64,000 nucleotides of DNA from Oscillospiraceae bacterium. GTDB lineage: Bacteria; Bacillota; Clostridia; Oscillospirales; Oscillospiraceae. Of the stretch, positions 28,937 to 51,685 are shown piece by piece. The stretch's first letter is position 1. The number at the start of each line of letters is the position of its first letter. The translations under genes and the position numbers were made by a program. Under the pieces are notes generated by a model. That model was not told the origin of the DNA, searched no databases, and saw only the letters and a program-made list of their open reading frames with translations. The stretch covers positions 39,125 through 103,124 of the forward strand of contig JAGPMA010000002.1 of the NCBI GenBank assembly GCA_018053145.1, read 5' to 3'.

Positions 28937-28982
28937 CCGGCATGAGCAGCTCGTCCGAAAATCGGATGAGCGCCCATGCCGG
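28937..28982 (-). terminator. Hairpin after CoA-transferase 1
   Basis: CCGGCATG and GCTCGTCCGA pair with TCGGATGAGC and CATGCCGG (one small internal asymmetry). The minus-strand continuation TTTCTATTTGTT is moderately T-rich. Confidence 0.65.
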
Positions 28983-29026
28983 CAATGTCTCAGCGAGGCA
29001 TTAAGCCCACGTCGAGTAATATTATA

Positions 29027-30460
29027 TTAGGGCTTGGGGAAGTTGTACTCTCTGGTGGGAACAACCGTGTTGGGTTGTCTGGGAGGTGCGGGAGTATAGT
29101 CGTTCATATCGTAATCTCTGAAGTCCCACTCTTCAATAAGCGGGGTTGTGAGGATTTGATCCTTCAGCCACTGACGGAAATCAGGATGAGCAATCTTGAT
29201 AAGAGCTTTGATACGATCAACATAGCTCTTGAGGTAAACATCGGCAAGACCGTACTCGGAAACTACGAACATAACATAGTTTTTGAGCATGGAAACGATG
29301 GAGCCTTCCGGCAGCCAAGGAACGATGTTTGACTTTGTTTCACCACAACTGCTGTCAACATAGGTTGAGCGCAGGCAAATGAAACTTCTGCCGCCCTTTG
29401 CGCGCTGTGCACCATAAATGTATGCAAAGGAGCCGCCCATGCCGGTATAGGGCTTAAGTCCCTGAGCTTCGGAGCAGGCCTGACCGAGAAGGTCAACCAT
29501 GAAGGTTGCGTTGATAGCGACAATGTTCTCCTGCTCCATTGTGGAAAGCATTTCGATGCAGGTGGTTCTCGGATACAGTCTTACATCGTGCTGTGTGGTT
29601 GCAAGCCACTGGAAGCATTCCTCTGTGCAGGCGCCGGGGCTGGAGGCGCGGATTCTTGTAATCTTGCCGCTCTCGACCAGAGGCATCATGCTGTCGCAGA
29701 GAACCTCGGAGAAAACCTCGAAAGAACCGGGAAGCTTAGCAAGGTTCGCGAGAATCGCCTCGCCCAGTCCGCCGAAGCCGATCTGGACTTTATCGCCTTC
29801 TCTGATATACGGAAGGATGTAAGAAGCGACTATTTCGTCCATAGCTGTGGGCTGAGGAATGGGCAGCGCCATCATCTCGGTATCGTTTGAAATTATGTAG
29901 TCGAACTCGGTAATATGGATGAAGTTATCATCAAGTGGGCCGGGAGCAGGATAAACGCCGGTTGCGTCTATAAATCCGAATTTCTTGACAATACGCGGAT
30001 CAAGGTTTGTTGTGCTGTTTGTTGTAACACCGTAGCATCCAACATTGCAATAGCCGTTTGCATCCGGGGGGCAAATCTGCAGAGCAGAGGTGTTTACACC
30101 GTATTCCCACATACACCAGGTGTATGAGTCATATCCGGCGCCGAGCACTTCAACTGTGTGCTCATCAATTCCCATGCGGTCTACTGGAAGGTTGTAGATG
30201 TTGAGAAGACGGAAGTGCTCCTTGGTGTCGTGATCAAAAATCATGTTTGCCGGGTAGTTAAATACATTGTACCAGAAAGTTACGTCATGGTACTCTTCCT
30301 TGTGCTCATAGAGGTAATCAAGGAAAGCGTAAGGAATGTTTGTTGCCTGTCCCATGTAGATTACATCGCCGGGCTGGATAGCCTTTGCAGCCTCTTCGAT
30401 TGATACGAGATGCGATTTGTAGTATTCTTGCCAGTCAACGCTTAAGTCTTTCTTTGCCAT
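29027..30460 (-). CDS. Acetyl-CoA hydrolase/CoA-transferase family protein (CoA-transferase 1)
   Basis: 477 residues of the family containing 4-hydroxybutyrate and butyryl-CoA:acetate CoA-transferases. QIGFGGLGEAIL (about 222) is the CoA-binding glycine loop; VFSEVLCD (about 245) carries the Glu that aligns with the catalytic Glu that forms the thioester; GMGGSFAYIYGA and GGRSFICLRST (about 340-365) form the C-terminal signature. The SFAYIYGA segment replaces the usual QxDFxRGA, shared with the two paralogues below, so the trio is a distinct clade. It has its own promoter, GGAG-type start and terminator. Probable job: charging acids for the neighbouring dehydratases. The substrate is unknown. 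Confidence 0.82.
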   Translation of the reverse strand: MAKKDLSVDWQEYYKSHLVSIEEAAKAIQPGDVIYMGQATNIPYAFLDYLYEHKEEYHDVTFWYNVFNYPANMIFDHDTKEHFRLLNIYNLPVDRMGIDEHTVEVLGAGYDSYTWCMWEYGVNTSALQICPPDANGYCNVGCYGVTTNSTTNLDPRIVKKFGFIDATGVYPAPGPLDDNFIHITEFDYIISNDTEMMALPIPQPTAMDEIVASYILPYIREGDKVQIGFGGLGEAILANLAKLPGSFEVFSEVLCDSMMPLVESGKITRIRASSPGACTEECFQWLATTQHDVRLYPRTTCIEMLSTMEQENIVAINATFMVDLLGQACSEAQGLKPYTGMGGSFAYIYGAQRAKGGRSFICLRSTYVDSSCGETKSNIVPWLPEGSIVSMLKNYVMFVVSEYGLADVYLKSYVDRIKALIKIAHPDFRQWLKDQILTTPLIEEWDFRDYDMNDYTPAPPRQPNTVVPTREYNFPKP

Positions 30461-30532
30461 TTAAATAAACAACTCCTTCTCCAAAAATGTTTTCAAAGTT
30501 CTTCAACTTTTGTTCAACATACGAGTAGATTT

Positions 30533-30561
30533 ATTATACAACATATTGGAAATTTATGCAA
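30533..30561 (-). promoter_or_regulatory. Promoter of CoA-transferase 1
   Basis: Minus strand TTGCAT (30561-30556), a 17-base spacer and TATAAT (30538-30533), about 75 bases upstream of the gene. Confidence 0.6.
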
Positions 30562-30835: not shown

Positions 30836-30856
30836 ATAATGCATATTTATGCAATT

Positions 30857-30907: not shown

Positions 30908-30943
30908 ATCATTAGTAATAATTAAATATTTTGCTGCTGAATG

Positions 30944-32299
30944 TTAATTGAACGGGTCATATCCTTCAAAATCGTCTTCCTTAATAAGCGGAGTTGTGCA
31001 AATCTTTTCCATCAATTCTTTTCTGAAATCAGGATGAGCAATTTTGATGATAGCCTTAATTCGGTCCTTCAAAGTCTTCATGAAGACATCTGCAACGCCG
31101 TATTCAGTAACGATATTCATGACATATACCTTCGTGGTAGTGACGATGCAGCCTTCGGGCAACCACGGATGGACATTGGAGTGGAGATTGCCATCGTGGT
31201 CGGTATATGTGGAGCGCAGGCAGGTGAAAGCTCTGCCGCCCTTTGAGCGGATTGCGCCGTAAAGGTATGCGAAGGAGCCGCCGGGCCCGCTGTATGGGTT
31301 GAGTCCCTGAGCTTCGGAGCAGCACTGACCGATAAGGTCAATCTGGAAGGTAGCGTTGATGGCAACGATGTTATCGTTCGGCATAATTCCGAGCGGATCG
31401 ATGCAAAGATTCTGTGGCAGGAAGCGGATTCTGCTGTCGGTAGCTGCCCACTCGAAAAATTCCTTTGAGCAAGCAGCAGGGCTTGAGCAGGTGATCTTTG
31501 TGAGGACGCCCTCTTTGCAGAGGTTCATCATGGATTCGCAGGCAACCTCGGAATAAACCTCAACGTGGCCGACATCGCGGAGGTTATTCAGAATTTCTTC
31601 GCCAAGCCCGCCGAAGCCAATCTGAACCTTATCGCCTTCCTTGAGGTAGGGCAGGATGTGATGAGCAATGTCCTTATCAAGCTCTGTCGGAGGAGATGCG
31701 GGGAATGAAACGAGATCTGTGGGGTTGTCAACGATGCAGTCAAGCTCGGAGACGTGTATGTAGTGTGTTTCATGAGGTCCGGGAACAGGATATTGGCCAG
31801 TCGGATCTATAAAACCGATTTTCTTTTTGATGCGCGGATCCTGAGTAACGGGTCCGTGTGTGCATACCTGATATGCGCCGACATTGCACCAGCCGTCTTC
31901 ATCGGGAGGACAAAGCTGAATTGCAGCGATGCTTGCATTGTAGGCAAAAGGTCCCATCGGGAACAGGTCATAACACATACCGCCGCAGTCGATGTTGTTC
32001 ATGCCAATCGCGACTCTCTCGAGGGGGAGGTTGAAGGCACTGAACATTTTAAAGTGTTTTTTTGCGTCAGGATTGAACACGATATCGGTGGGCATGTTCA
32101 TTGCGTTGTAAACAAGAGTTACGTTGTGATATTCTTCACAGTGCTCATTGAGAAAATCAAGGAACGCATACGGTGTGCAAGCCGCGTTGCTTAGCCAAAC
32201 CGTTTCGCCGTCCTTAATAAGGGCAGCAGCATCCGCCATTGTGCCGTGATGCTCCTCATAGTATTTTTTCCAGTCGATGCTTAAATTCTTCTCTGCCAT
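30944..32299 (-). CDS. Acetyl-CoA hydrolase/CoA-transferase family protein (CoA-transferase 2)
   Basis: 451 residues, closely related to the flanking paralogues along the whole length. QIGFGGLGEEIL near 220, catalytic-type Glu in VYSEVACE near 243, GPGGSFAYLYGA near 335 and GGRAFTCLRST near 355. The N-terminal WKKYYEEHHGTM and the C-terminal IKIAHPDFRKEL are also shared with the paralogues. Compared with CoA-transferases 1 and 3 it lacks a short C-terminal tail. It is a separate transcription unit with its own promoter and terminator. Differences in the central region (about 95-190) may set acyl specificity; that is inference. Confidence 0.82.
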   Translation of the reverse strand: MAEKNLSIDWKKYYEEHHGTMADAAALIKDGETVWLSNAACTPYAFLDFLNEHCEEYHNVTLVYNAMNMPTDIVFNPDAKKHFKMFSAFNLPLERVAIGMNNIDCGGMCYDLFPMGPFAYNASIAAIQLCPPDEDGWCNVGAYQVCTHGPVTQDPRIKKKIGFIDPTGQYPVPGPHETHYIHVSELDCIVDNPTDLVSFPASPPTELDKDIAHHILPYLKEGDKVQIGFGGLGEEILNNLRDVGHVEVYSEVACESMMNLCKEGVLTKITCSSPAACSKEFFEWAATDSRIRFLPQNLCIDPLGIMPNDNIVAINATFQIDLIGQCCSEAQGLNPYSGPGGSFAYLYGAIRSKGGRAFTCLRSTYTDHDGNLHSNVHPWLPEGCIVTTTKVYVMNIVTEYGVADVFMKTLKDRIKAIIKIAHPDFRKELMEKICTTPLIKEDDFEGYDPFN

Positions 32300-32596: not shown

Positions 32597-34006
32597 TCAG
32601 ATGAATATTCTCTTGAAATCGGGGTTACCGAGAACCTTTTGGTCATTAACCGGATTATAGTCGCTGAGATTCTCAAAGTCTTCCTCTTCAATGAGCGGAG
32701 TAGTGCAAATCTTCTCTTTGAGTTCCGCTCTAAAATCTGAATTCGCAATTTGTATAAGAGACTTAATGCGGTCCTTTAAGGTTTTGAGAAACACATCGGC
32801 TATTCCGTGCTCTGTTACAACAAACATTACAAAGTTTTTCGGAGTTGTCACAATGGAGCCTTCGGGCAGCCACGGTACAATGTTAGAATGGGTAACTCCG
32901 TCGTGGTCAAGATAGGTGGAACGCAGACATAAGAAGCTCCGTCCGTTTTTGGCTCTGGTCGCACCATAAAGATATGCAAAGGAGCCGCCTGTTCCGCTAT
33001 ATGGTTTCAATCCCTGAGCCTCGGAGCATGCTTGACCGATAAGGTCTATCATAAAGGTTGCGTTTATGGCAACAATATTTTCCTGCGGAATAACGCCCAG
33101 CGGATCGACACAATTGTAGATTGGCAGAAAATTAGCTCTAGTATCATCACGAATAAAATCGAAAAACCGCTGAGAGCAGGCGGCGGGGCTAGTAGCGGTT
33201 ATCTTTGTAAGAACTCCTTCTTCGCAAAGGCCTGCCATGTTATCACAGGCGACCTCGGAATAGATTTCAAAATTACCGATGCTTTTTAGATTTGCAAGAA
33301 TCTCTTCGCCAAGTCCGCCAAACCCAATTTGTACCTTGTCTCCCGAATGAATATACGGAAGTATATAGGAAGCAATCTTCTTATCATATTCAGAGGGAGG
33401 CATTGCTGGTATTGCATTGAATTCTGTATCGTTCTCGCAAACGTAATCAAACTCGGTTATGTGGATGCAAGTATTCTTTTTTTCGCCTTTCACAGGAAAT
33501 TGACCTGTTCTGTCAATGAAAGCGATTTTCTTTGTAATTAGAGGATTGTTACAAATTATATCATTTGTGGACTGCCCATATGCCCCAACATTGCACCAGC
33601 CATCCGTATCCGGAGGGCAAACCTGAATCGCCAACGCATTGCATCCATAGACAAAGGGCCCCATGTGAAGCTGGTCATAATTGCAACCAGCAGACTCGGC
33701 AATGCCCATTTCTATTGACATTCGTTCAAGAGGTAAATTAAAGAAGCTAACGTTACGGAAATGCTTTTTTGTCTCCGGGTCGAAAAGCATGTTGAAGGGC
33801 ACATTTGCACAATTGTGTATTAAGAAGATATCGTGATAGTCGTACTCAGGCTCGCTCATGTGCGCATGCATCTCATCGAGCATTGCATAAGGAATCTGAG
33901 TTGCCTGTCCCAGCCAAACTCTGTCGCCGGGCTTTATGGCACGAGCTGTTTCGTTCATTGTAATAAGGTGGTCTTCGTAGTACTTCTTCCAATCTGCCAT
34001 TATCAT
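32597..34006 (-). CDS. Acetyl-CoA hydrolase/CoA-transferase family protein (CoA-transferase 3)
   Basis: 469 residues starting MIMADWKKYY, with ATG seven bases after AAAGGAG. QIGFGGLGEEIL near 232, IYSEVACDN near 255 (putative catalytic Glu), GTGGSFAYLYGA near 348 and GGRS-like NGRSFLCLRST near 365 define the family. It is the third copy of the tandem array and the one nearest to the dehydratase operon, from which a strong terminator separates it. The promoter is not clear; weak -10-like TAAACT lies near 34115. As for its paralogues, the acid substrate is unknown. Confidence 0.82.
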   Translation of the reverse strand: MIMADWKKYYEDHLITMNETARAIKPGDRVWLGQATQIPYAMLDEMHAHMSEPEYDYHDIFLIHNCANVPFNMLFDPETKKHFRNVSFFNLPLERMSIEMGIAESAGCNYDQLHMGPFVYGCNALAIQVCPPDTDGWCNVGAYGQSTNDIICNNPLITKKIAFIDRTGQFPVKGEKKNTCIHITEFDYVCENDTEFNAIPAMPPSEYDKKIASYILPYIHSGDKVQIGFGGLGEEILANLKSIGNFEIYSEVACDNMAGLCEEGVLTKITATSPAACSQRFFDFIRDDTRANFLPIYNCVDPLGVIPQENIVAINATFMIDLIGQACSEAQGLKPYSGTGGSFAYLYGATRAKNGRSFLCLRSTYLDHDGVTHSNIVPWLPEGSIVTTPKNFVMFVVTEHGIADVFLKTLKDRIKSLIQIANSDFRAELKEKICTTPLIEEEDFENLSDYNPVNDQKVLGNPDFKRIFI

Positions 34007-34270: not shown

Positions 34271-34636
34271 TTATTTCATGAACTGCTCAATAGCCTTGTT
34301 CAAATCAACTAGTTTTTGTTTATCGTCATTAGCTACAGCTTCGGTAATACACTCAGTAATATGGTCCTGTAAAAGAACCTTTCCTGCATTATTTATCGCG
34401 GATCTAACAGCAGCCAGTTGAACAAGAACCTCGGCACAATCCCTGTCGGTATCTATCATTCGGATAACAGATTCCAAATGCCCGTTTGCTTTTGAAAGGC
34501 GGTCATGTACCGCCTTTTTATTGGTATGCACATGAGGGTGCGCACTCCCGTGCTCATGCTCATGCTCGTGACTATGTGCAGTCCCATCAGCATGGACATG
34601 ATATCCCTGTTCGTCATACTCGGTTACATCATGCAT
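34271..34636 (-). CDS. His-rich CsoR/RcnR-family metal-sensing repressor (InrS-like ligand set)
   Basis: 121 residues. Residues 1-40 are a His-rich tail with eleven His in the first 37. A DUF156 all-helical domain follows. Candidate ligands are His35, Cys67, His92 and Cys96. The spacings 32, 25 and 4 are those of the RcnR/InrS/CsoR metal site, and the H-C-H-C combination matches the nickel sensor InrS; Cu-sensing CsoR shares C-H-C. His35 lies in the His-rich tract, so its match may be fortuitous. It is the last gene of the operon, 24 bases after the CooC-like gene. It may sense nickel or copper and regulate this operon; the target operator was not found. Confidence 0.85.
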   Translation of the reverse strand: MHDVTEYDEQGYHVHADGTAHSHEHEHEHGSAHPHVHTNKKAVHDRLSKANGHLESVIRMIDTDRDCAEVLVQLAAVRSAINNAGKVLLQDHITECITEAVANDDKQKLVDLNKAIEQFMK

Positions 34637-34660: not shown

Positions 34661-35422
34661 TTAATACTCGGGAATAATTTTCTTTAGGATTGCAATAACA
34701 GCCTGCGGGCAAGCGCTGTCAAGGGGAAGCTCAAACAATGAGGTGTTCTCGCGGTCATACTTGTTAACATCAGCATCTTCGGGCAGTTCGCCAAACACTT
34801 CAAGTCCGACCTTTTTTAGAAGCTCTTCCTTAGGCTGATCGTTGCGGACACGATTTAGCACAAGGCCTGTCATCTTAACATCGATGTTGTTTTCACCGGC
34901 ATTAGCAACAGAAATAATTCCGGCCGCTGTCTGAAGGCTTCTGGCGGACATATCCGCCATAACGAGCAGACAATCAACGCTCTTAACAACGCGGCGGTTA
35001 AGCTGCTCGGGGCCTGCCTCGCCATCGATTACAACATAATCATAATCACCCGCGAGAGTATCAATTCCGAAACGCAGCAGCTCGTTGCAGGCGCAGAAGC
35101 AACCCGGCTCTTCCGGGCGCCCCATTGTCAACAGGTCAAAACCCTTGCCGTGAGCAAGAATGCTGCGCATTAGGTCTTTTGTCGGACCGTTGTTGAGCTG
35201 ATCTCTGGCCTGACGCATACCGACAAGCTCGGCGCGAAGATTACTGACGGTCTTATCAACCTTCAAACCGGTTGTATAGCACAGGCTCATTGCCGAGTCA
35301 GCATCAATTGCAAGCACTCTTCCGGGAAAACGGTCTGCAAGTAAACGGATAAGAAGAGTCGAAACAACAGTTTTTCCTGTTCCGCCTTTTCCTGTAACGG
35401 CAATAGATTTAATTTTTTCCAT
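34661..35422 (-). CDS. CooC/MinD-type P-loop ATPase, metallocenter maturation-like
   Basis: 253 residues from ATG 35422, six bases after GAGGGA; a longer in-frame ORF upstream is antisense to nothing known and has no site. Deviant Walker A GKGGTGKT (11-18, signature Lys11), switch region DADSA near 40, YDYVVIDGEAGPE near 130, and a CxCxC motif at Cys108, Cys110 and Cys112. CooC proteins, which insert nickel into CO dehydrogenase, bind metal through a CxC at almost the same position. No CODH is in the window. It sits between dehydratase pair A and a metal sensor, so it may mature or supply metal to an enzyme of this operon; this is inference. Confidence 0.82.
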   Translation of the reverse strand: MEKIKSIAVTGKGGTGKTVVSTLLIRLLADRFPGRVLAIDADSAMSLCYTTGLKVDKTVSNLRAELVGMRQARDQLNNGPTKDLMRSILAHGKGFDLLTMGRPEEPGCFCACNELLRFGIDTLAGDYDYVVIDGEAGPEQLNRRVVKSVDCLLVMADMSARSLQTAAGIISVANAGENNIDVKMTGLVLNRVRNDQPKEELLKKVGLEVFGELPEDADVNKYDRENTSLFELPLDSACPQAVIAILKKIIPEY

Positions 35423-35468
35423 ATCATGTCCCTCGCTTTCCAATATGAATAATATGAATAGCTTTTGA

Positions 35469-35519: not shown

Positions 35520-36845
35520 TTATTTGGTAAAGTTCTTTGCGCCGACAACGGATTCCATGTACTCGCCAATTTGAGCACGGAGCTCATCGTTGGATTTGTA
35601 ACGAGGATCAATAGCGTCGACATCGACGTACAGGGTGGGGATACCGTACTTTTCCTGAATGTAGTCTGTTACTATCTTTCCGGAAGCCCAAGTGTGCTTG
35701 CAGCCGACATGGCCCATGAAGATGGATACGTTAACCTTGAAATCGTCATACATCTTATCGATGGTCTTCAGCCAGTACTCAGTCGGGCCAGTTGCACCGT
35801 GGATCATCGGAACGAGAAGCATAGACTCAGCAAGCTGAAGCTTAACGTGCTCCCAGTTGTCAAGATCGTCGAAGATAAGACCATCTTGATAGCCGAAACC
35901 ATCCATAACGGTGATTGCGCCGTAGGTCTTTTCCATCCAGTCCATTATGCCGGTGTTGGACCACATCATGTTCTGCATTAGGCATACGCGATAGGGCTGC
36001 TCGCCATCTGGGCATCTTGTTGCTGTCATACCCATATCGGTGAGCATGTTGCCCATCTCGAGCTGAGTCTGGAGCATTGAAGTAACCTCGGGAGTACCTG
36101 CCAGAGGAGCGATGATTTCGTTAAGAACAAGCATACGTCCGGGCAGTACGCAAGGAGTCTTTTTACGAAGATCGCCAAGCTCTGCGAGGATTGCGTAAGC
36201 CTTGTTGGATTCTTCGGTGATTTCTTTAAACTTCTCGTAACGAGCAGCATCCCACTTCATTCCGGTCAACTCTTCCATGAAGGGAACAAAAGCTTCAATC
36301 TGCTGTGCAAGATACTCATAGCCCTTCTGGTCATGACGGAAGGGGCAGTCAAAGGTAAAGCACGGGCAATCGAACAGACGCTCCATCATGGGGTATGCTA
36401 TACGAGCGGAGTCGCAGGGAACGGTTGCGTGTACGAATGCATCAATCTTAACGCCGAACTCGCCCTTGAGTGCGCAGCCAAGCTGTGCCTTGTCGATAGC
36501 GCACATGCTGGTGGGAGCATACTTCTCTGTCTCGTCGATGTAGCGGCTGCAAAGGTCTTCCATTGAAGCGATACGGGTGGGGATGGTATCAAGGAAGAAG
36601 GGAACACAATCAAATGCGCGCATAATGGTTACGGGAACAGGTCCGCCGAAGGCAATAAGCTTTTTGCCGGCTGCCTTTGCGTCACGGATTTCTTCCCAAG
36701 TGAACTTCTGGATATCAACTGTCCACATTACTTCGGGCATGCCCTTGGAGAGCATGTGCTGATAAATGCTGTCAACCTGGTTGCAGGTCAAATCTATCAT
36801 GTTAACCGGCTGGGTGGGATCAAAGTTCTGCTTTACTTCTGCCAT
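35520..36845 (-). CDS. 2-hydroxyacyl-CoA dehydratase/benzoyl-CoA reductase family, alpha-type subunit A
   Basis: 441 residues. Cys80 (AFDC), Cys115 (SMCAIDK), Cys144 (VPCDSAR) and Cys382 (GHVGCKHTW) are the Cys conserved in all four alpha copies here; three of them should bind a [4Fe-4S] cluster. The C-terminal TLYVDVDAID-RYKS block is the family's end motif. It forms the heterodimer with the beta gene 19 bases upstream. It is in the only operon that also encodes activators and ferredoxin. The family either removes water from 2-hydroxyacyl-CoA through a ketyl radical or reduces aromatic acyl-CoA; sequence reading alone cannot separate these. It has its own GGAGG site, unlike copies B-D. Confidence 0.85.
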   Translation of the reverse strand: MAEVKQNFDPTQPVNMIDLTCNQVDSIYQHMLSKGMPEVMWTVDIQKFTWEEIRDAKAAGKKLIAFGGPVPVTIMRAFDCVPFFLDTIPTRIASMEDLCSRYIDETEKYAPTSMCAIDKAQLGCALKGEFGVKIDAFVHATVPCDSARIAYPMMERLFDCPCFTFDCPFRHDQKGYEYLAQQIEAFVPFMEELTGMKWDAARYEKFKEITEESNKAYAILAELGDLRKKTPCVLPGRMLVLNEIIAPLAGTPEVTSMLQTQLEMGNMLTDMGMTATRCPDGEQPYRVCLMQNMMWSNTGIMDWMEKTYGAITVMDGFGYQDGLIFDDLDNWEHVKLQLAESMLLVPMIHGATGPTEYWLKTIDKMYDDFKVNVSIFMGHVGCKHTWASGKIVTDYIQEKYGIPTLYVDVDAIDPRYKSNDELRAQIGEYMESVVGAKNFTK

Positions 36846-36864: not shown

Positions 36865-37986
36865 TTACTTATCTAACATTTCAACGAATGCTTCTGCACG
36901 GATAGCAAGCTGTCCGGCATTAGCCATCTGCTCTTCACGCTCAAGCTGAAGCATTGGAAGCCCGATAGCCTTAAGTTCCGGCTCGAGATAATAAGACTCG
37001 CCGCCCCAGCATTCGCAGTTCTGCATCTTCTGATAAATGACACCCTGTACGCCATAAGCCTTGCAATCTGCGACAATGTCCTTATGAAGAGCAGGACGAC
37101 TGTCGAGGCTGCGAGGGCAAGCGATACGGTCGAGGTAATACTTAGCAATAGAACCCATAATGTCCTTGTCGTCAACAACGATCTGCTCGCCGAAGGCCTT
37201 GTAGCCGAAGCACATATTGTCAGCAACTATAAGTCCACCCTTGTCCTCGATAACCTTGAGGTACTCGGGGTTATCAAGTGCGGAGCCGATGAGCATCAGA
37301 CGTGCGCGTGCTTCGATGGGCTTACGGTTCTTAGCTTCAGCAAGGAAATCCTTGAGAGCTGCGATGTACTCATCGATTGTCATGTCGCACTCTGCAAGAG
37401 TGATGGAGAGAACTTCTGCTCCGGTTACAACGGGCTTTTCAGCCTTGCGGAGATCATAGATCTGAGCGATAAGGGCGCGCATTTCATTTGTCTTTGCGAT
37501 TGCGGCCTTAAGTGACTCATCAGTAATTTTTTTGCCGGAAACTTCTCCGAGCTTGTCTGCAAGAGTCTGGAGCTCAGCCTTGTAGTATCCGATAGTGGTT
37601 TCATTGGTTATACGGGGTGCACCGATCTGATAAATGAAAAGATTCTTTCCGGCCTTCTTGGAAATGTGATCCCAGTTGTCGAGGATGCGTGTGGGCATCA
37701 TACAGCCGTCGGACTGAACCAGACCATCGAGGTCGTATGTACCATTCATAAGGTACTGGAGAATGGAGCGTGCATAGCTGCAGCTGAAGCTGGACATCCA
37801 TGCTTCTGCGTCACTGCTGTCAACACAGTTTGTTGCTCTGAGACGTACGGGAAGAATATCAGCTGCATAGAAAAGTTCTTCAGGAACGTGGCAGCACACA
37901 TATCCTAATGCCTTTTTGCCGGAAGCTTTCCAAGCTTTTACGGATTCGCTTGAAATGTTGGTCTCGAATAATTTTTCGTAACTCAT
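36865..37986 (-). CDS. 2-hydroxyacyl-CoA dehydratase/benzoyl-CoA reductase family, beta-type subunit A (HgdB-like)
   Basis: 373 residues. CCHVPEE (31-37) is the family N-terminal motif; Cys69 (FSCSYAR), Cys95 (SDGCMM) and Cys324/Cys326 (NCECWGGE) are candidate cluster ligands. The tail LEREEQMANAGQLAIRAEAF is the classic HgdB/FldC/HadC C-terminal signature. Cys54 (TNC) is shared with copies C and D but not B. It is translated just before alpha A. Its 40-base leader around the AAAGGAGGAGACACATG start is nearly identical to that of beta B, a sign of duplication. Confidence 0.87.
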   Translation of the reverse strand: MSYEKLFETNISSESVKAWKASGKKALGYVCCHVPEELFYAADILPVRLRATNCVDSSDAEAWMSSFSCSYARSILQYLMNGTYDLDGLVQSDGCMMPTRILDNWDHISKKAGKNLFIYQIGAPRITNETTIGYYKAELQTLADKLGEVSGKKITDESLKAAIAKTNEMRALIAQIYDLRKAEKPVVTGAEVLSITLAECDMTIDEYIAALKDFLAEAKNRKPIEARARLMLIGSALDNPEYLKVIEDKGGLIVADNMCFGYKAFGEQIVVDDKDIMGSIAKYYLDRIACPRSLDSRPALHKDIVADCKAYGVQGVIYQKMQNCECWGGESYYLEPELKAIGLPMLQLEREEQMANAGQLAIRAEAFVEMLDK

Positions 37987-38086: not shown

Positions 38087-38362
38087 TCACCAAGAGAAGC
38101 CGATTGCGTTGGCTGTACAGGCGGTTGCGCAGAGTTCCTTATCTGCGCCCGACTTGCATTGCGCGCAGCTTGTTTGCAAGGTGTTGCGGGCATCCTCCCG
38201 AATCAGCACTACTTCGTCGTCAAAATCGTCCAACTCTGTTGCAAAAAGCTTTTCTGGACAAGCACTGATGCAGCCCTTGTCCGAGCACTCCGCACATTTT
38301 GAGGTGTCAATTTTAATGTAATAGTGACCGGAACCATCTTCATAGCCATAATTTGCTATCAT
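38087..38362 (-). CDS. 2[4Fe-4S] ferredoxin
   Basis: 91 residues, cytosolic electron carrier. The first cluster motif is Cys23-x2-Cys26-x4-Cys31-x3-Cys35-Pro. The second is Cys66-x2-Cys69-x8-Cys78-x3-Cys82, with an insertion between the second and third Cys. Such insertions occur in Chromatium (Alvin)-type ferredoxins, which have very low potentials and donate electrons to class I benzoyl-CoA reductase. Its position between activators and dehydratase A makes it the likely electron donor to the activator pair. It ends 100 bases before the beta A start. Confidence 0.88.
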   Translation of the reverse strand: MIANYGYEDGSGHYYIKIDTSKCAECSDKGCISACPEKLFATELDDFDDEVVLIREDARNTLQTSCAQCKSGADKELCATACTANAIGFSW

Positions 38363-43731: not shown

Positions 43732-45024
43732 CTACTTCATTACTACCGTTTCAAAGTATTCAGCTATTTGAGCTTTGATTTCGTCGCCGGATTTATAGCG
43801 ACCGTCAATAGCATCAAGGTCGACATACAGTGTCGGCATGCCGAATTTCTCCTGTACCATATCAGTAACCATCTTTGCAGAAGCCCAAGTATGCTTGCAT
43901 CCGACATGTCCGAGGAACATCGACACATTGGGGGAATACTGCTCGAAAATGTGTTCAACCATTTTCACGTGGTTTTCGCTCGGTCCGGAAGCGCCGTGAA
44001 TCATTGGGTTGTTCTGCATCTTTCTGCCCATTACCTTCAAACAATCACGCCTGTCATCCATGTGCTCATACATAATATCGCCTTGGAATCCAAAGGCATC
44101 CATTACCGCAACAGCATTATATTCCTTTTGCATCCAATCCATGATACCGGCATTGCCCCAAATCATGTTTTGCAGCATTGCAATACGGTATTTTTCATCT
44201 TCGCAGGCGCCCATGCCGAGTTCAACCATCATTTTTCCGACTTCAAGCTCACTCTGATAGAGGTCTCCCATGATGGGATAGCAGGCAACGGCATTTGTTG
44301 TTCCATTCAAGACCAACAGACGTCCAGGCAGGGGACAGGGCTTATGCTTACGCAAATCAGCGCACTGCCTTTGAAGGTCGAAGTTCCGGTTTGCATTTTC
44401 CATAAAATATTTGAGTTTGTCCCAATCAAGCTTATGGCCTGTGTGCTCTTCCATGAAAGCAATTAAATCTTCCATTTGATCCGCGAGGTATTCGGCACCG
44501 CGCTCGTCCCTGCGGAAGGGCATGTCAAAGCTGAAGGTAGGAACGCCGATAATCTTTTCCATCGCAGGGTATGCAACACGTGAGCTATCGCAGGGAACAG
44601 AGTTGTAAATGAACAAATCGGGCTGCATGCCATAATCTCCGCAAAGCCATGCTCCGAGCTCAACCTTGTCAAGTCCGCACATAGAAGCGCCGACATATTT
44701 TTCGGTTTCGTCTATGTATTTCGCTGTCAATGTGGGGTTGGTGGACAGACGGAAGGGAATGGTGTCAAGATAAAAGCCGACACAATCGAATGCCGCGATG
44801 AGCTCTGTAGGTACAGATCCGCCGTAAAAAACAAGTTTTTTGCCGTTTTTGTGAGCATCACGGAAACCATCCCACATAAACTTCTGAATTTCCATCGTCC
44901 AAAGCATATCGGGATTTCTTTCCTTCATGCGCTCAATGGAGGCGTCTACCTTTGCGCAGGCAAACTCCGTTATTGTCATTTCGCCTTTTAAAACGAGTCC
45001 TTCAAGATCTTTAACGTCAGCCAT
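43732..45024 (-). CDS. 2-hydroxyacyl-CoA dehydratase/benzoyl-CoA reductase family, alpha-type subunit C
   Basis: 430 residues. Conserved AFDC near 81, SMCGLDK near 116, VPCDSSR near 145 and GHVGCKHTW near 375, the last followed by ASAKMVTDM and the LYVDLDAIDGRYKS end. The acyl-pocket candidate segment reads NMIWGNAGIMDWMQ. It is coupled to beta C: three bases separate stop and start, and the ribosome-binding site lies in the beta C terminal codons. Overall it resembles copy B most in the N-terminal third (RMKE-NPD-LWT). Substrate unknown. Confidence 0.85.
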   Translation of the reverse strand: MADVKDLEGLVLKGEMTITEFACAKVDASIERMKERNPDMLWTMEIQKFMWDGFRDAHKNGKKLVFYGGSVPTELIAAFDCVGFYLDTIPFRLSTNPTLTAKYIDETEKYVGASMCGLDKVELGAWLCGDYGMQPDLFIYNSVPCDSSRVAYPAMEKIIGVPTFSFDMPFRRDERGAEYLADQMEDLIAFMEEHTGHKLDWDKLKYFMENANRNFDLQRQCADLRKHKPCPLPGRLLVLNGTTNAVACYPIMGDLYQSELEVGKMMVELGMGACEDEKYRIAMLQNMIWGNAGIMDWMQKEYNAVAVMDAFGFQGDIMYEHMDDRRDCLKVMGRKMQNNPMIHGASGPSENHVKMVEHIFEQYSPNVSMFLGHVGCKHTWASAKMVTDMVQEKFGMPTLYVDLDAIDGRYKSGDEIKAQIAEYFETVVMK

Positions 45025-45027
45025 GTC

Positions 45028-46158
45028 TTAGTCCTCCTTCTCTATCATTTCGATGAATGCTTCGGCACGAATTGCAAGCTGACCCGCGTTAGCCATCTGC
45101 TCTTCACGTTCAACTGTCAGAAGTGGGATACCCTCGTCTTTAAGTCTCTTCTCAAGCAAGACATTTTCTCCGCCCCAGCACTCGCAGTTCTGCATTCTCT
45201 GATAGATTATGCCGTCCGCTTTGAAGTCTCTAACTGACTTGATCACGTAATCGTGCATTTCTATGTGTTTATCCATCATTCTCGGGCACACAAGACGCTC
45301 AAGATAATACTTTGCAATAGAGCCCAGAACATCCTTTTCGTCGATTTCCATAGGTTCTCCGAAGCCTCTTTCGCCGAAGCAAAGAGCATCCGCCACAACG
45401 AGTCCTCCCTTGTCCTCGATGACCTTCAAATATTCAGGGTTGTCAAGCGCCGAGCCAATTACCATAATTCGAGCACGGGCATCCGTTATCGGAGTGCGGT
45501 TCGCAGCGTCAGCAAGAAAAGCCTTGAGCAGCTCTATATATTCATCGACAGGCATATTTGTTGAAGACAGTGTCAGCTTGAGCATATCGGTCCCGCTGAT
45601 AACAGGGTTTTCCGCTTTGCGCAGTTCGTTAACCCTCTTCATAAGTACGCGAGCCTCGTTTTGCTTTTCCACAGCAGCTTTAAGCTTATCGTCGGTTATT
45701 TTATTGCCGGTGAGCTTTTCAAGGCCTTCGATAAGATCCATAAGCTCAGCCTTGTAGAAGGGCGTCGTTCTGGCATTGCTGAGGCGAGGAGCTCCAATCT
45801 GCATTATGAAACGGCCCTTGCCCTCTTTTGCATCAATATACTTTGCGTTATCGTAAATACGCGCCGCCATCATGCAGCCATCTGATGCTACAAGCCCATC
45901 AAGCTCATAGGTCCCGTCAAGCCAATACTGCAATATAGCCTTGGCAAAGCTGCAGCTGAAACTGGACATCCATGTTTCAGCTTCGCTGCTGTCAACGCAA
46001 TTTGTTGCTCTCATGCGAACAGGAAGTACATCCGCCGCATAAAAAATTTCCTCCGGAACATGACAGCAAATAACACCCAGTGCTTTTTTACCTTGGGCTC
46101 TCCATGCTTTTGCTGCCTTCGTTGAAATGTCTGAGTCAAACAACTTCTGGTAATCCAT
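45028..46158 (-). CDS. 2-hydroxyacyl-CoA dehydratase/benzoyl-CoA reductase family, beta-type subunit C (HgdB-like)
   Basis: Starts at ATG 46158 (MDYQKLFDSD), six bases after GGAGG; the in-frame extension upstream is unlikely. 376 residues with CCHVPEE near 31, TNC near 54, FSCSFAK near 69, SDGCMM near 95, NCECWGGE near the end and the VEREEQMANAGQLAIRAEAF tail. FSCSFAK differs from the FSCSYAR of copies A and B and is shared with copy D. It ends EKED, doubling as the Shine-Dalgarno of alpha C. Confidence 0.86.
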   Translation of the reverse strand: MDYQKLFDSDISTKAAKAWRAQGKKALGVICCHVPEEIFYAADVLPVRMRATNCVDSSEAETWMSSFSCSFAKAILQYWLDGTYELDGLVASDGCMMAARIYDNAKYIDAKEGKGRFIMQIGAPRLSNARTTPFYKAELMDLIEGLEKLTGNKITDDKLKAAVEKQNEARVLMKRVNELRKAENPVISGTDMLKLTLSSTNMPVDEYIELLKAFLADAANRTPITDARARIMVIGSALDNPEYLKVIEDKGGLVVADALCFGERGFGEPMEIDEKDVLGSIAKYYLERLVCPRMMDKHIEMHDYVIKSVRDFKADGIIYQRMQNCECWGGENVLLEKRLKDEGIPLLTVEREEQMANAGQLAIRAEAFIEMIEKED

Positions 46159-46693: not shown

Positions 46694-47989
46694 CTAAATT
46701 TTGACGACAGTTGTGAGGTATTCACCGATTGCGTCCTGAACCTCTTCAGCGGATTTATAACGTCCGTCAATGCAGTCAACGTCAAGCAGCAGAGTTGGGA
46801 TATCGTATTTCTCCTGAATGAAATCGGACAAAATTTTTGTAGAAGCCCAAGTGTGCTTGCAGCCGACGTGTCCGAGGAAGACTGAGGTGTTGATGTTGAA
46901 GTTGTCCATAAGGTAGCTAATTCTGTCACAATAATAATCGACAGGACCGGCGGCACCGTGGATCATCGGAAGGTTCATCATCTTAACCGCCATAACCTTT
47001 AAGCAGTCATCAAAATTGCTCAAATCCTCATAAATGTCGGGGTGATAGTGTCCCAGAGCGTCCATGATGCAGATAGCGCCGTATTCGCGCTCTAAGTAGG
47101 AATAAGCCTTGAGCTGAGTCCAGAGCATGTTCTGGAGGAAGAGCATTCGGTATTTTTCACCGTTCATGCAAGCGCCCATCTCCATGGCAATCATCATCTC
47201 GCCCATTTCGAGCTCTTTTTCGAGGAAAGCAATCATAGCAGGGTCAGCTGCCATTCCGCTCATGCAGGCGTTTGTGACAAGAAGCATCCCAGGCAGCGGA
47301 CAGGGGGTATGCTTTCTAAGGTCTGCCAGTTTTCCGATAAGCTCGTTTGTCTTATTGGCGACCTCCATGCTGGCTCTCATCTTGTCCATGTCAAGTTTTT
47401 TGCCTGTGAGCTCTTCCATGAAGGTGATGAATTCCTTAGTCTGCTGGACGAGGTACTCTACGCCGCGCGCATCTCTGCGGAAGGGAAGATCGATGTTAAA
47501 TACGGGGCAGCCCCACATTTTTCCCATAATCGGATATGCAATTCTTGAAGAATCGCAGGGAACTGTCGAATATACAAAAGCGTCAGGTACAACACCATAT
47601 TGATCAGCGAGAAGTGCACCCATCTCGACTTTGTCGATTGAACACATACTCTGGTTTGTCTTTGCCTCACACATATCTACAAACTTTGAGTTCATATCGC
47701 CTTTTGGAGCGGTGCTCAAAGGTAGCTGGTCCAGATAGTAGGGCTGGCAGTCAAAAGCATAGATGATATCAACGGGCATAGGTCCGCCGAAAGCGATTAG
47801 CTTTTTACCGTTCTTGTGAGCATCACGAATCTGTCCCCACTGTGCAACCTGTAGGTCATAAATCCATGCGCTGTCCGGGTCCTTGTTAAGAGTATGTGCA
47901 AGCTTACCTTCGCACTGGCTTGCAATATAATCGGTGGTGCTTAGCTCTCCACTCATAACCTTTAATAAGTCAGTATCAACCATTGCCAT
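46694..47989 (-). CDS. 2-hydroxyacyl-CoA dehydratase/benzoyl-CoA reductase family, alpha-type subunit D (divergent)
   Basis: 431 residues. The four conserved Cys are present (AFDC near 79, SMCSIDK near 115, VPCDSSR near 144, GHVGCKHTW near 376), so cluster binding should be intact. Elsewhere it is the most divergent alpha: the N-terminal LWT motif becomes AWIYDLQVAQW, and the GIMDWME stretch near 297 becomes LKAYSYLER. Such changes point to a different acyl-CoA substrate; this is inference. Start ATG lies three bases after the beta D stop with the shared embedded ribosome-binding site. Confidence 0.84.
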   Translation of the reverse strand: MAMVDTDLLKVMSGELSTTDYIASQCEGKLAHTLNKDPDSAWIYDLQVAQWGQIRDAHKNGKKLIAFGGPMPVDIIYAFDCQPYYLDQLPLSTAPKGDMNSKFVDMCEAKTNQSMCSIDKVEMGALLADQYGVVPDAFVYSTVPCDSSRIAYPIMGKMWGCPVFNIDLPFRRDARGVEYLVQQTKEFITFMEELTGKKLDMDKMRASMEVANKTNELIGKLADLRKHTPCPLPGMLLVTNACMSGMAADPAMIAFLEKELEMGEMMIAMEMGACMNGEKYRMLFLQNMLWTQLKAYSYLEREYGAICIMDALGHYHPDIYEDLSNFDDCLKVMAVKMMNLPMIHGAAGPVDYYCDRISYLMDNFNINTSVFLGHVGCKHTWASTKILSDFIQEKYDIPTLLLDVDCIDGRYKSAEEVQDAIGEYLTTVVKI

Positions 47990-47992: not shown

Positions 47993-49123
47993 TTAGACCT
48001 CCTTTTCAATCATCTCGATGAATGCTTCCGCGCGGATTTCAAGCTGACCTATATTTGCCAACTTCTCTTCACGCTCAAGGTAGAGGATTGGAACTCCAGC
48101 ATCCTTGAGAGCCGGCTCGAGGTATGTGTTTTCGCCGCCCCAGCATTCGCAGTTCTGCATTTTTACATAGAGGAGGCCGTCTACCTTATAGTCTGTTGCT
48201 CTGTTTACGATGAGATTATGAAGCTGGGGGCGATTGTCAATCATGCGAGGGCAAACGATGCGGGTAAGATAATAATCAGCGATTGAGCCGATGACATCAT
48301 TTTTGTCAACCTTAAGCTCATCACCGAAAGTCATGCTACCAAAGCAAAGCGTGTCGGCAACGATTAGTCCGCCCTTGTTTTCAATTGCTTCGATATATCT
48401 TGGATCATCAAGAGCACTGCCAATAACCATTAGACGAGCGCGATAATCAGCTACAGACTTCCTGTTTGGAACATCTGCAAGCAAGGCCTTAAGCAGCTCT
48501 ATGTATTCCTCGACAGGCATATTGGTTGAAGCAAGCATAACTCTCATTACCTCGGCACCAGTAAGCACCGGGTGTTCTGCTTTTTGAAGTTCGAGCACCT
48601 TCTTTACGAGAACGCGAGCTTCGTTATAGGTTTCAACGGATTTGATGAGCTTTTCATCAGTGACCTTGTTCCCGGCGAGCTTCTCCAAGCCCTCAACAAG
48701 AATCTGTAACTCGCCCTTGTAATAGGCCCTCGTTGTAGCGCTGTTCATGCGCGGTGCGCCAATCTCGATAATTGTCTGCTCTTTGCCGGCCTTTTTGGAA
48801 TAGGCCTTCCAGTTGTCATAGATTCTTGCAGCCTGCATGCAGCCATCGGAGGTGACAAAGCCGTCCAAATCGTACACGTTGTCAATTAGATACTGAAGGA
48901 TTGATTTCGCGAAGCTGCAGCTAAAGCTGGACATCCATACTTCCGCTTCACTGTAGTCCTCGCAGCCTGTGGCGCGAAGTCTAACGGGCAGCACATCCGC
49001 CGCATGGAGTAATTCCTGCGGGACGTGGCAGCAAACTACACCTAGAGCTTTTTTTCCCTGTGCTCTCCAAGCGCTGATTGCGTCTTTGTTGATTTCCGAT
49101 TCGAATAGTTTCTGATAGTTCAT
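47993..49123 (-). CDS. 2-hydroxyacyl-CoA dehydratase/benzoyl-CoA reductase family, beta-type subunit D (HgdB-like)
   Basis: 376 residues from MNYQKLFESE. CCHVPQE near 31, TGC near 54, FSCSFAK near 69, SDGCMQ near 95 (Met to Gln against the other copies), NCECWGGE about 50 from the end, and EREEKLANIGQLEIRAEAF. It ends EKEV plus stop, still forming AAGGAGG for alpha D. It is the first gene of the minus-strand block, facing the divergent thioesterase gene. Its promoter is unclear; a TATAAT lies near 49245 without a good -35. Confidence 0.86.
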   Translation of the reverse strand: MNYQKLFESEINKDAISAWRAQGKKALGVVCCHVPQELLHAADVLPVRLRATGCEDYSEAEVWMSSFSCSFAKSILQYLIDNVYDLDGFVTSDGCMQAARIYDNWKAYSKKAGKEQTIIEIGAPRMNSATTRAYYKGELQILVEGLEKLAGNKVTDEKLIKSVETYNEARVLVKKVLELQKAEHPVLTGAEVMRVMLASTNMPVEEYIELLKALLADVPNRKSVADYRARLMVIGSALDDPRYIEAIENKGGLIVADTLCFGSMTFGDELKVDKNDVIGSIADYYLTRIVCPRMIDNRPQLHNLIVNRATDYKVDGLLYVKMQNCECWGGENTYLEPALKDAGVPILYLEREEKLANIGQLEIRAEAFIEMIEKEV

Positions 49124-49493: not shown

Positions 49494-49522
49494 TTCACTT
49501 TCAACAAATAATGAGTTATAAT
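49494..49522 (+). promoter_or_regulatory. Promoter of the thioesterase/CoA-transferase 4 operon
   Basis: TTCACT (49494-49499), a 17-base spacer and a perfect TATAAT (49517-49522). It places the transcript start near 49529, which excludes translation starts further upstream. Confidence 0.6.
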
Positions 49523-49652
49523 GCCAGAAGTGTTGCTAAAAAGACAGTTTACAAGAGCTTTTTCTATAAATGAATATAAAAAATTCGTGCCTCGTTACAA
49601 CGACTGCATATTGTTTTGTTTCATGAGCACATCAAAAGGAATGGTAAATTAT

Positions 49653-50186
49653 ATGATTAAAAAAGTTATCAAAAAACAGGAAAATGCATACGATTGCTTT
49701 GTGTGCGGATTGGATAACAACAGCGGACTTAAAGCCGCTTTTTATGAATTGGAAGACGAATCGGTGGTCGCTTTAGCAGTTGCTCAGTCAATTCATCAAA
49801 GCTATACAAACACAGTACACGGTGGGGTCATCACCGCCCTTTTGGACGAAACCATTGGCAGAGCTGTTAAGATTAACGAGCCCGAAACCTGGGGAGTAAC
49901 TGTTGAAATTAACGTAAGCTTTAAAGCGCCAGTGCCTTATGATTCTCAGCTGCTTATTACCGGCAGAATAACAGAGAACAGCACAAAGATTTTTGTTGGT
50001 GAGGGTGAGCTGATTTTGCCCGACGGCACTGTTGCAGCTTTGGCTACCGGCACTTTTTATAAAATGCACGCAAGTCGTCTTGAAAGCAGGGGCGCGGACA
50101 GAAACATGATGCAGCTATATATTTTTGATACCGATCCAACGGAAATAGATATTCCGATAAATGTACATAACGAGGTTAACGCTTAA
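49653..50186 (+). CDS. Hotdog-fold thioesterase, PaaI/acyl-CoA thioesterase type
   Basis: About 177 residues from ATG 49653; the ORF is open up to 49521, but that overlaps the promoter -10 box. CFVCGLDN at the N-terminus, then the hotdog signature HGGVITALLDETIGRA (about 50-65), in which HGG and the Asp/Glu are the catalytic region, and VEINVSFKAPVP near 82. A 60-residue tail past the hotdog domain is unassigned. By family it hydrolyses acyl-CoA thioesters; with the dehydratases it may release stalled CoA esters or recycle CoA. It is followed 41 bases later by CoA-transferase 4. Confidence 0.8.
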   Translation: MIKKVIKKQENAYDCFVCGLDNNSGLKAAFYELEDESVVALAVAQSIHQSYTNTVHGGVITALLDETIGRAVKINEPETWGVTVEINVSFKAPVPYDSQLLITGRITENSTKIFVGEGELILPDGTVAALATGTFYKMHASRLESRGADRNMMQLYIFDTDPTEIDIPINVHNEVNA

Positions 50187-50227
50187 TCTTAACAAACAAT
50201 AATAACAAACAACGGCAGGTAAGGATA

Positions 50228-51685
50228 ATGTACTGTGAGAGAATTAAGTGCAGGGAGCTTGAAAAGCACATCATGAGTGCCGAAGAGGCTGGGTCTTACA
50301 TAAAATCAAATATGACAATCGGCATGAGCGGCTTTAGTACGGGTTCCCCAAAAGCAATTCCAATTGAAATGGTAAAACATACAACGGGCCTGACTGTTAT
50401 TCAAGGTGCCGGGCTTGGAGTTATTGACGAGCTGGCTCACTCCGGTGCAATCTCGCGATATGCCGCTTTCCAATGGAGCCGAGATATGCGTAATACGATT
50501 AACAACGGAGAAGTAGCGTTTACGGATATTCACTTGAGTCAGCTTTCCGATAAGCTTCGAAAAGGCGTTTTCGGAAAAATCGATTATGCGATAATTGAGT
50601 GCTCCAAAATTAATGAAGATGGCGGAATTGTGCCCTCCCTTTCGCTTGGTGTGTCAAATGTACTTCTCGAATGTGCCGACAAGGTTCTTTTAGAAATAAA
50701 TTTGAAGGTTCCTACACAAATTGAGGGCATACACGATATCAGCAGCAATCCCTATAAACCGCTAAACGGTATTCTTGAAAGAACAGGCGAAACCGTGTTT
50801 CACTGTGATCCGAGCAAAATTGTGGGTATAGTAATCACAGAAAAAGAAGAAGAAAAAATCAACTTCAGAGATACAAATGTGCTTTATCAAGACATAGCAC
50901 ATCAAGTGCTTCGCCTTTTGGAGAAAGAAATAACCGAAAATCGCTTGCCGCGAGATTTCACATTACAGGCCGGCGTCGGAGGCGTTGCAAATGCTGTGCT
51001 TCAGGGTTTGAGCGAAGGCGGGTTTACGGGACTGAAAATGTATACCGAGGTTTTGGCAGACGGAGCTCTTAGTTTTATAAAAAGCGGTGTTATAACCGAG
51101 GCTTCGACAACAACTCTTGATTTATCGCCGGTGGGACTTGAGTCATTTTTCGAGAATATTGATTTTTATAAGAAGCATATCATTTTGCGCCCACTTGAAA
51201 TTTCAAACGGCATAACACAGATAACAACGCTTCAGCCTGTGGCGATGAACACGGCGCTTGAGGCTGATATTTACGGAAATGTCAACTCCACTAACGCAAT
51301 GGGCTCAACTATGCTAAATGGAATTGGCGGGTCGAACGACTTTTGCAGATGCTCTAGGCTCTCGATATTCATTACGCCCTCCACTGCGAAAAACGGCGCA
51401 ATTTCGAGCATTGTTCCGATGGTATCACATGTGGACAGCACAGAGCACGATGTCGACATTATAGCTACGGAATATGGTTATGCCGACCTGCGAGGCAAAT
51501 CACCCAAGGAGCGCGTCAAAGAAATCATCGAAAACTGCGCTCATCCTGACTATCGCCAACCGCTATGGGACTACTTTAACAGCGCGGTTTTGTTATGTGG
51601 CCCGTGTCAGACACCGCATGACCTTTCAAATGCTTTTTCATGGCATCAACGGTTTTTGAAAACGGGTAGTATGAAGAACACCTAA
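50228..51685 (+). CDS. Succinyl-CoA:CoA-transferase/acetyl-CoA hydrolase family protein (CoA-transferase 4, Cat1-like)
   Basis: 485 residues. SGFSTGSPKAIP near 38-49 is the CoA-binding N-terminal motif; AGVGGVANAVL near 258; MYTEVLADG near 283 carries the expected catalytic Glu; GIGGSNDF near 380 and the C-terminal TEYGYADLRGKSPKERV complete the Cat1/AarC-type signature. It is clearly a different clade from CoA-transferases 1-3, which have GGSFAYxYGA at the equivalent place. Transcribed divergently from the dehydratases with a thioesterase. Acetate or succinate as partner acid is suggested by the family, not shown. Confidence 0.85.
   Translation: MYCERIKCRELEKHIMSAEEAGSYIKSNMTIGMSGFSTGSPKAIPIEMVKHTTGLTVIQGAGLGVIDELAHSGAISRYAAFQWSRDMRNTINNGEVAFTDIHLSQLSDKLRKGVFGKIDYAIIECSKINEDGGIVPSLSLGVSNVLLECADKVLLEINLKVPTQIEGIHDISSNPYKPLNGILERTGETVFHCDPSKIVGIVITEKEEEKINFRDTNVLYQDIAHQVLRLLEKEITENRLPRDFTLQAGVGGVANAVLQGLSEGGFTGLKMYTEVLADGALSFIKSGVITEASTTTLDLSPVGLESFFENIDFYKKHIILRPLEISNGITQITTLQPVAMNTALEADIYGNVNSTNAMGSTMLNGIGGSNDFCRCSRLSIFITPSTAKNGAISSIVPMVSHVDSTEHDVDIIATEYGYADLRGKSPKERVKEIIENCAHPDYRQPLWDYFNSAVLLCGPCQTPHDLSNAFSWHQRFLKTGSMKNT

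Follow-up and report, generated by a model that had tools for sequence, protein, structure and literature searches.

Several reductase/dehydratase-type subunit pairs beside one apparent activase in an Oscillospiraceae gene block

Closest described systems and the block compared with them

To our knowledge, the known class I reductases and the dehydratases of the benzoyl-CoA reductase/2-hydroxyacyl-CoA dehydratase (BCR/HAD) family have been described as one catalytic pair per activator. In this study, we analyzed a 64,000-nucleotide stretch of an Oscillospiraceae genome (the window; GenBank assembly GCA_018053145.1, contig JAGPMA010000002.1, positions 39,125 to 103,124), in which a block at 28937-51685 holds four pairs of a small subunit (N1 to N4) and a large subunit (O1 to O4), together with two activase halves (P and Q), a ferredoxin, a CooC-like ATPase, a CsoR-family regulator, a thioesterase, and four CoA-transferases (CT1 to CT4). 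We lean toward reading this block as a one-to-many BZD-type (class I) BCR/HAD machine that would use ATP and ferredoxin to reduce CoA-activated acids by two electrons, and we predict that it likely handles several such acids.

With BzdNOPQ and BzdM of Aromatoleum CIB (PDB 8s02), the block shares the six double-cubane cysteines and two arginines of N, a three-cysteine O, two activase genes (Q scoring over the BzdQ cut-off), and a ferredoxin gene in the operon. Unlike BzdNOPQ, it has several N/O pairs per P/Q and includes CooC and CsoR genes in its operon, ring-opening genes were not found with the Oah/Had models, and its O carries Asp for Glu65, Ile, Leu, or Met for Tyr97, Ala or Ser for His131, and Gly for Ser44 of BzdO. 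HadBC with HadI (PDB 3o3m) has the same fold, the three-cysteine catalytic cluster in the large subunit, and an activase of the same family, but HadC retains four of the six double-cubane cysteines, and HadB has Glu55 and Tyr where the block has Asp and Ile, Leu, or Met. The 3-methylbenzoyl-CoA reductase MbdONPQ (PDB 9g87 and 9gai) likewise shares the fold and has two unlike activase subunits, whereas MbdN has three of the six cysteines and MbdO has Glu67 at the position of Asp86 (O1 numbering). DCCP/YjiM (PDB 6eno and 7yyl) shares the six cysteines of N; however, DCCP is described as a homodimer (PMC11971306), in contrast to the paired genes, the O with three cluster cysteines, and the CoA-transferases found here. 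The block appears to work like a BZD-type machine but stands outside that type by its catalytic residues and by the curated cut-offs for N and O.

Class I bzdNOPQ genes have been reported in Desulfotomaculum gibsoniae, where their identity to the Azoarcus type is 47-68% and they do not form one unit (PMC4148979), and in deep-sea Chloroflexi, where the ferredoxin accompanying them is given as bzdM (PMC5736913). In the open-licence PMC literature, we found neither the genus (sought by the bin name HGW-Firmicutes-16 only) nor the array nor the Asp variant. Other identities considered for the block were rejected: an ordinary HadBC-type array on the basis of model scores and cluster ligands, a plain DCCP because the genes are paired and O lacks the double-cubane set, and the canonical benzoate pathway on the basis of the Oah/Had models, BamA and dienoyl-CoA hydratase models not being among those tried.

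The N and O subunits

Reduction is favored because N has the same double-cubane ligands as BzdN. In BzdN, the [8Fe-9S] cluster is bound by Cys36, Cys73, Cys100, Cys263, Cys293, and Cys327, and Arg53 and Arg290 contact its distal half (PMC11971306). All six cysteines and both arginines occur in 37 of the 37 block-type N rows of our alignment, which come from the window, the rest of the genus set (11 genomes, among them G000, the window's own genome, a 2.25-Mb assembly of 106 contigs that is 95% complete), the metagenome bin JAHAWY, and genome G239; the six positions are also invariant in an alignment of 34 N rows. Among 16 N rows from outside the family, seven have the six cysteines (BzdN, DCCP, YjiM, Acetoanaerobium, Sulfurovum, and two rows of the L086 type), six have four of them (HadC, two HadC-like proteins, Azoarcus KH32C, Rhodococcus, and Rhodobacteraceae QY30), MbdN and a Rhizobium row have three, and a Fusobacterium row has none; BzdN alone combines the six cysteines with both arginines. 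The first-pass annotation, made from the sequence without database searches, had stated that all pairs keep the cluster cysteines. This holds for N1 (36865-37986), N2 (42211-43353), N3 (45028-46158), and N4 (47993-49123), all on the minus strand, and with its six-cysteine set N goes beyond the dehydratase pattern. All four belong to the HGD-D family, and N4 matched PF06050 in the genome search. The AlphaFold model of N1 (mean pLDDT, 91.7) had BzdN as its best PDB match (8s02_B; Foldseek E value, 1.5e-24; TM score, 0.88; 28% identity). Against the curated HadBC and double_cubane models, N reached 114-124 bits (cut-off, 700) and 173-186 bits (cut-off, 350), respectively.

Orphan copies look different, in that their N rows have Ser at position 263 and none of the five has the full six-cysteine set. 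One genome carries orphan N genes at L015 4269-5405, L016 10239-11369, and L017 95-697 and an orphan O gene at L018 11699-12994; two of these N genes are full length, with Ser at one double-cubane cysteine, and the third is truncated by the contig start. By eye, NadA- and NifS-like genes neighbor this orphan O, and in L071, L075, and L079 the orphan O genes are accompanied by one NifS-like and one Rrf2-like gene.

All 45 family O rows retain the three cysteines that bind the catalytic [4Fe-4S] cluster, including O1 (35520-36845), O2 (40912-42207), O3 (43732-45024), and O4 (46694-47989) of the window, again on the minus strand and of the HGD-D family (O4 with PF06050). The position of the catalytic glutamate (Glu65 in BzdO, Glu55 in HadB) is Asp in the same 45 rows, as opposed to Glu in eight of nine other O-type rows and Gln in the ninth, the 520-residue L086 protein. 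Six of six profile-profile runs, led by HadB, MbdO, or BzdO, local and global, and all sharing the same reference rows, aligned Asp86 of O1 to this glutamate; residue 73 of O1 (T/D/E), an earlier candidate for the catalytic acid, was dropped on the basis of this alignment. At the position of the proton donor, the active site is unlike that of the relatives compared. Further, the position of BzdO Tyr97 is Leu in 24 family rows, Ile in 19, and Met in 2, compared to Tyr in seven and Phe in one of the eight Glu-type rows, and that of Ser44 is Gly, as it also is in three of the eight Glu-type rows. Because the AlphaFold 2 model of O1 (mean pLDDT, 90.0) matched MbdO, HadB, and BzdO about equally (TM scores of 0.74-0.78 by query length), we regard O as neither clearly reductase-like nor clearly dehydratase-like. 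Against the curated HadBC model (cut-off, 750), O reached 25-39 bits.

Gene order, the activase, and distribution

On the minus strand, the block runs N4-O4, N3-O3, N2-O2, P-Q-Fd-N1-O1-CooC-CsoR (Fd, ferredoxin), CT3, CT2, CT1, and a divergent plus-strand unit holds the thioesterase and then CT4. The gene inventory of the first-pass annotation was right throughout, with every named gene in place and the families confirmed, except for the ferredoxin, which is identified by its two four-cysteine motifs, but its view that four pairs share one activator operon has to be revised. Gaps within the core unit, from P to CsoR, are 15-100 nucleotides (nt), and pairs 2, 3, and 4 form separate units with gaps of ∼375, 535, and 804 nt, so that one pair, N1/O1, and not four, belongs to the activase operon; CT1 to CT3 are spaced by 264-483 nt. 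The same core order is found in sister genomes of the genus, eight genomes having it when the window is counted (the others being G001, G002, G004, G006, G007, G008, and G010, with P of G004 cut by a contig end), and it is interrupted by contig ends in G003 and in bin JAHAWY. Since this order recurs across genomes, the arrangement is more than chance.

The annotation had also taken P (39337-40107, minus strand) and Q (38431-39321, minus strand) for two unlike, separate activators. P belongs to the BcrAD_BadFG family (PF01869; TIGR00241, 221.7 bits; cut-off, 125.4), and Q passes the BzdQ model TIGR03192 with 402.0 bits (cut-off, 380.2), as does Q of G239 with 420.7 bits. Class I reductases carry an ATP-binding dimer, which in the BZD type is BzdPQ and is predicted to bind the catalytic dimer transiently (PMC11971306). 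For both reasons, P and Q appear to be halves of a single BZD-type heterodimeric activase, and the predicted transient binding makes its sharing among pairs mechanically possible. Gene counts are consistent with such sharing: a genome-wide profile search of G000 gave 12 HGD-D matches and two BcrAD/BadFG activases, both of them in the window, and G006, which is rated 100% complete, has two activases only and four block-type pairs. Block-type pairs number six in G001 and five in each of G007 and G008, and all three genomes have one P/Q adjoining N1/O1; the further activases above the cut-off in G001 and G007, and one in G008, sit beside other HGD-D families. (The count in G004 is unsure, as two contig ends carry a P gene and a P fragment.) One activase pair thus seems to serve four to six N/O pairs, a conclusion we infer from gene content.

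The ferredoxin (38087-38362, minus strand) has two four-cysteine motifs (C23, C26, C31, and C35; C66, C69, C78, and C82), its Pfam Fer4_6 match is below the cut-off, and a PDB search gave just an unrelated weak match. The CooC/MinD-like ATPase (34661-35461, minus strand; start uncertain, with an ATG at ∼35422 likely) has CooC (PDB 3kje) as its best PDB match (E value, 3.2e-14), is kept beside N/O, and turns up next to three different HGD-D families. This recurrence points to a role in loading the clusters of these families, and the protein is possibly a cluster- or metal-loading factor. Such ATPases lie at L086 7606-8364, L097 6916-7689, L136 7844-8644, and L137 6847-7761, besides the window. 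One literature search aimed at it showed no precedent for maturation of a double-cubane cluster by a CooC-like protein, its passages dealing with DCCP regulation. The last gene of the unit encodes a metal-sensing regulator of the CsoR family (34271-34636, minus strand; PF02583) with a His-rich N-terminal tail, which is unusual for that family.

Nine PF13336 CoA-transferases were found in G000, four of them in the block. CT1 (29027-30460), CT2 (30944-32299), and CT3 (32597-34006), all on the minus strand, are 4-hydroxybutyrate-CoA-transferase-like: CT1 by family models and PDB 3eh7 (E value, 4.9e-47), and CT2 and CT3 with 166.5 and 155.8 bits for TIGR03948, under its cut-off of 674.8. On the plus strand, the hotdog thioesterase (49521-50186, start uncertain; PF03061) is followed by CT4 (50228-51685), a succinyl-CoA:acetate CoA-transferase of the ScpC type (NF053853, 534.4 bits; cut-off, 500).

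In the trees, N and O each form a clade of their own. N1 to N4 are four orthologue groups of 11, 10, 7, and 8 rows and O1 to O4 four groups of 12, 11, 7, and 8 rows, and because each group spans at least seven assemblies, the duplications are at least as old as the genus; G239 is the sister. The references were BzdNO, MbdNO, HadBC, and DCCP from the PDB, records of a plasmid collection, and two other families of the genus, and the tree program flagged long branches. The alignments and trees exclude the rows of G003, whose O1 contains an internal stop, together with a fragmentary N (G005), a split N2 (G007), and a truncated orphan N (C76), and they do not include lone or remote O copies (L101, L106, and the one on contig C73 of G005). 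Of the phylogeny that the first-pass annotation had called for, one part is thereby answered: the pairs fall outside the characterized clades compared, a statement that covers BzdNO, MbdNO, HadBC, and DCCP and not the named HgdAB, FldBC, LcdAB, and BcrBC sequences. Its picture of a functional-looking, diversified, lineage-specific system with several pairs and few activators is borne out by these clades and by N and O scores far below the curated cut-offs. Two genomes of the genus (L087 and L105) also hold a separate pair, placed with HadC at 100/95 in the tree; that of L087, the one run against the models, scores 521.0 and 549.0 bits, under the NCBIfam cut-offs of 700 and 750.

The family is present in 10 of the 11 genus genomes, the exception being 78% complete. 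A scan of genome contigs of 84,980 species with two short peptide patterns, which misses relatives without either exact peptide, gave 36 loci; L021-L047 (at least 30% identity) belong to ten metagenome bins titled Clostridia, Clostridiales, Oscillospiraceae, Firmicutes, or Bacillota, and the remaining nine loci are remote or partial. This set and the genus set are not independent, as nine sister genomes (G001-G008 and G010) coincide in length and position with contigs from the scan. Among 391 genomes drawn from the class, G000 and G239 pass an E value of 1e-30; among 398 drawn from the phylum, G000 alone passes 1e-60, and G239, which would pass, was evidently not drawn. Near full-length matches occur in three (G239, G450, and G459) of the 40 genomes of G239's family, all with a single-copy system, and partial, remote ones in two. 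The G450 and G459 matches were reported with an internal stop codon, yet their O frames of 422 residues are open.

Neighboring genes and the predicted chemistry

In G239 (3.39 Mb, one contig), a sigma-54 regulator, an enoyl-CoA hydratase, a FadB-like 3-hydroxyacyl-CoA dehydrogenase/hydratase, a thiolase, and an acyl-CoA ligase precede P, Q, two opposite-strand transposase-like open reading frames (ORFs), N, O, CooC, and a CoA-transferase; the two ORFs, named by eye, split this single-copy operon (L126/L127) between Q and N. The order in G459 is N, O, CoA-transferase, dehydrogenase, thiolase, and the 3.1-kb contig of G450 ends too soon to show neighbors. No acyl-CoA dehydrogenase was found in the single-copy operons of G239 and G459. 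In L068 and L072, an acyl-CoA dehydrogenase (Pfam) and a MarR regulator are convergent to an N2-type pair. The absence of dehydrogenases and acyl-CoA dehydrogenases noted in the first-pass annotation therefore holds within the block and does not extend to these relatives. TetR adjoins N4/O4 in five genus genomes, its place being taken by the thioesterase unit in the window, and LysR adjoins N3/O3 in L077 and an N1-type pair in L089 (TetR, LysR, and MarR named by eye). These neighborhoods support a modular layout with one activase unit, into which cassettes made up of a pair, a CoA-transferase, and a regulator would plug. Moreover, the genus has a separate system (L086 3858-14255; L097 3191-13566) made up of a 520-residue O, a double-cubane-type N, one activase, a 3-hydroxyacyl-CoA dehydrogenase, a thiolase, a CooC-like ATPase, an unknown protein of ∼240 residues, and a CoA-transferase ∼60% identical to CT3. 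G000 carries thiolase, 3-hydroxyacyl-CoA dehydrogenase, crotonase, and Etf-like genes (by eye) and two acyl-CoA dehydrogenases, on which basis it is likely a butyrate-type fermenter.

Elsewhere in the window, a GntR/ABC-transporter cassette (25285-28437, by eye) lies beside the block, and its ABC and membrane genes (clusters c8 and c6) are found again close to family genes in five of the sister genomes. Two divergent T-box leaders (182-449, minus strand; 701-944, plus strand) score above the Rfam gathering threshold. A promoter and terminator scan found 43 and 23, compared to 30.5 and 19.7 expected by shuffles, and its result was not used.

In the mechanism that we favor, the ferredoxin would feed electrons to the heterodimeric activase P/Q, which would spend ATP, push them to very low potential, dock transiently on any of several N/O pairs, and charge the [8Fe-9S] double-cubane cluster of N. 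From there, electrons would pass to the [4Fe-4S]-water cluster of O, which would carry out the two-electron reduction, via a radical, of an acid that is bound to CoA and probably unsaturated or aromatic, with Asp86 as the proton donor in place of the usual Glu. Every pair would act on a different substrate, which one of the family I CoA-transferases would activate; the CooC-like ATPase may help to load or maintain a cluster. Of this scheme, the order of the genes, the cluster ligands, the Asp replacement, and the presence of one P/Q for several pairs are seen in the sequences, and the pairing of P with Q, their sharing among pairs, the two-electron chemistry, the parts played by Asp86 and CooC, and the difference in substrates are inferred. 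A double cubane has been argued to store at least two electrons for a reductase, as opposed to the one electron that dehydratases recycle (PMC11971306).

Several observations weigh against this mechanism or against activase sharing. N1 to N4 score 128-156 bits with the curated BzdN model, far under its cut-off of 453.8, O2 to O4 score ∼33 bits with that for BzdO (cut-off, 448.6), and O1 has no match to it at an E value of 0.001. In the trees, support for joining the N family to BzdN is weak (90/45), and O is not placed with any known family. BzdO His131 is replaced by Ala or Ser in all 45 family O rows, the same position being Phe in MbdO and, in this alignment, Val in HadB (Ala in the paper). 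The Oah/Had ring-opening models TIGR03200 and TIGR03201 gave no match over the cut-off in any of the 11 genus genomes or 14 controls, a comparison that has no positive control; sub-cut-off matches occurred in 9 and 7 of the 11 genus genomes and in 11 and 13 of the 14 controls, respectively. The beta-oxidation genes beside the single-copy system in G239 and G459 fit an enoyl-CoA product as well or better. As for sharing, one further activase in G008, at 31.8 bits (cut-off, 31.5), is on a contig with no HGD-D match listed, and a second activase could be missing from G000, given its 106 contigs and 95% completeness. Reduction is nonetheless favored, if not by much, because the double-cubane N, the BZD-type Q, and the operon ferredoxin outweigh the lack of ring-opening matches and the beta-oxidation neighbors.

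A strong, though less likely, alternative is that the block encodes diversified 2-hydroxyacyl-CoA dehydratases. In that case, the CoA-transferases would make 2-hydroxyacyl-CoA, P/Q would give one catalytic electron, O would remove water, and the resulting enoyl-CoA would go to acyl-CoA dehydrogenase or beta-oxidation, with the double cubane a retained ancestral feature. The ties of N/O to hydratase/3-hydroxyacyl-CoA dehydrogenase and thiolase in G239 and G459, in operons lacking acyl-CoA dehydrogenase, would suit such a route, as would the acyl-CoA dehydrogenase and MarR genes of L068 and L072 and an amino acid- or butyrate-fermenting metabolism of the kind that the G000 genes fit. However, HadC lacks two of the six double-cubane cysteines, and the HadC-grouping pair of L087 and L105 is separate from the block. 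The studied Had activator is a homodimer, in contrast to the two unlike halves found here. Improbable, by comparison, is an ATP-driven reductive side activity that serves as an electron sink (reductive dehydroxylation or partial aryl-CoA ring reduction) and not in carbon degradation, in which the CoA-transferases would exchange CoA between product and substrate; the abundance of these enzymes, the missing ring-opening matches, and the double-cubane N would all suit it, but beta-oxidation neighbors suggest that, at least in G239 and G459, the carbon is used.

Returning to reduction by a one-to-many BZD-type machine, we tentatively propose a third functional BCR/HAD class: Asp-type double-cubane heterodimers, expanded within one genus, in which at least four substrate-specific pairs would draw on one ATP-dependent activase, with a CooC-like maturation factor. 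If this is true, the cell would direct one low-potential electron source to several carboxylic acids. For fermenting Clostridia, the ATP demand of class I enzymes has been put forward as an obstacle (PMC11971306; PMC5736913); if the chemistry is reductive, the block would represent new low-potential reductions in such organisms. It would also offer a natural set of substrate variants on what seems to be one activase, together with a CooC-like candidate for double-cubane maturation.

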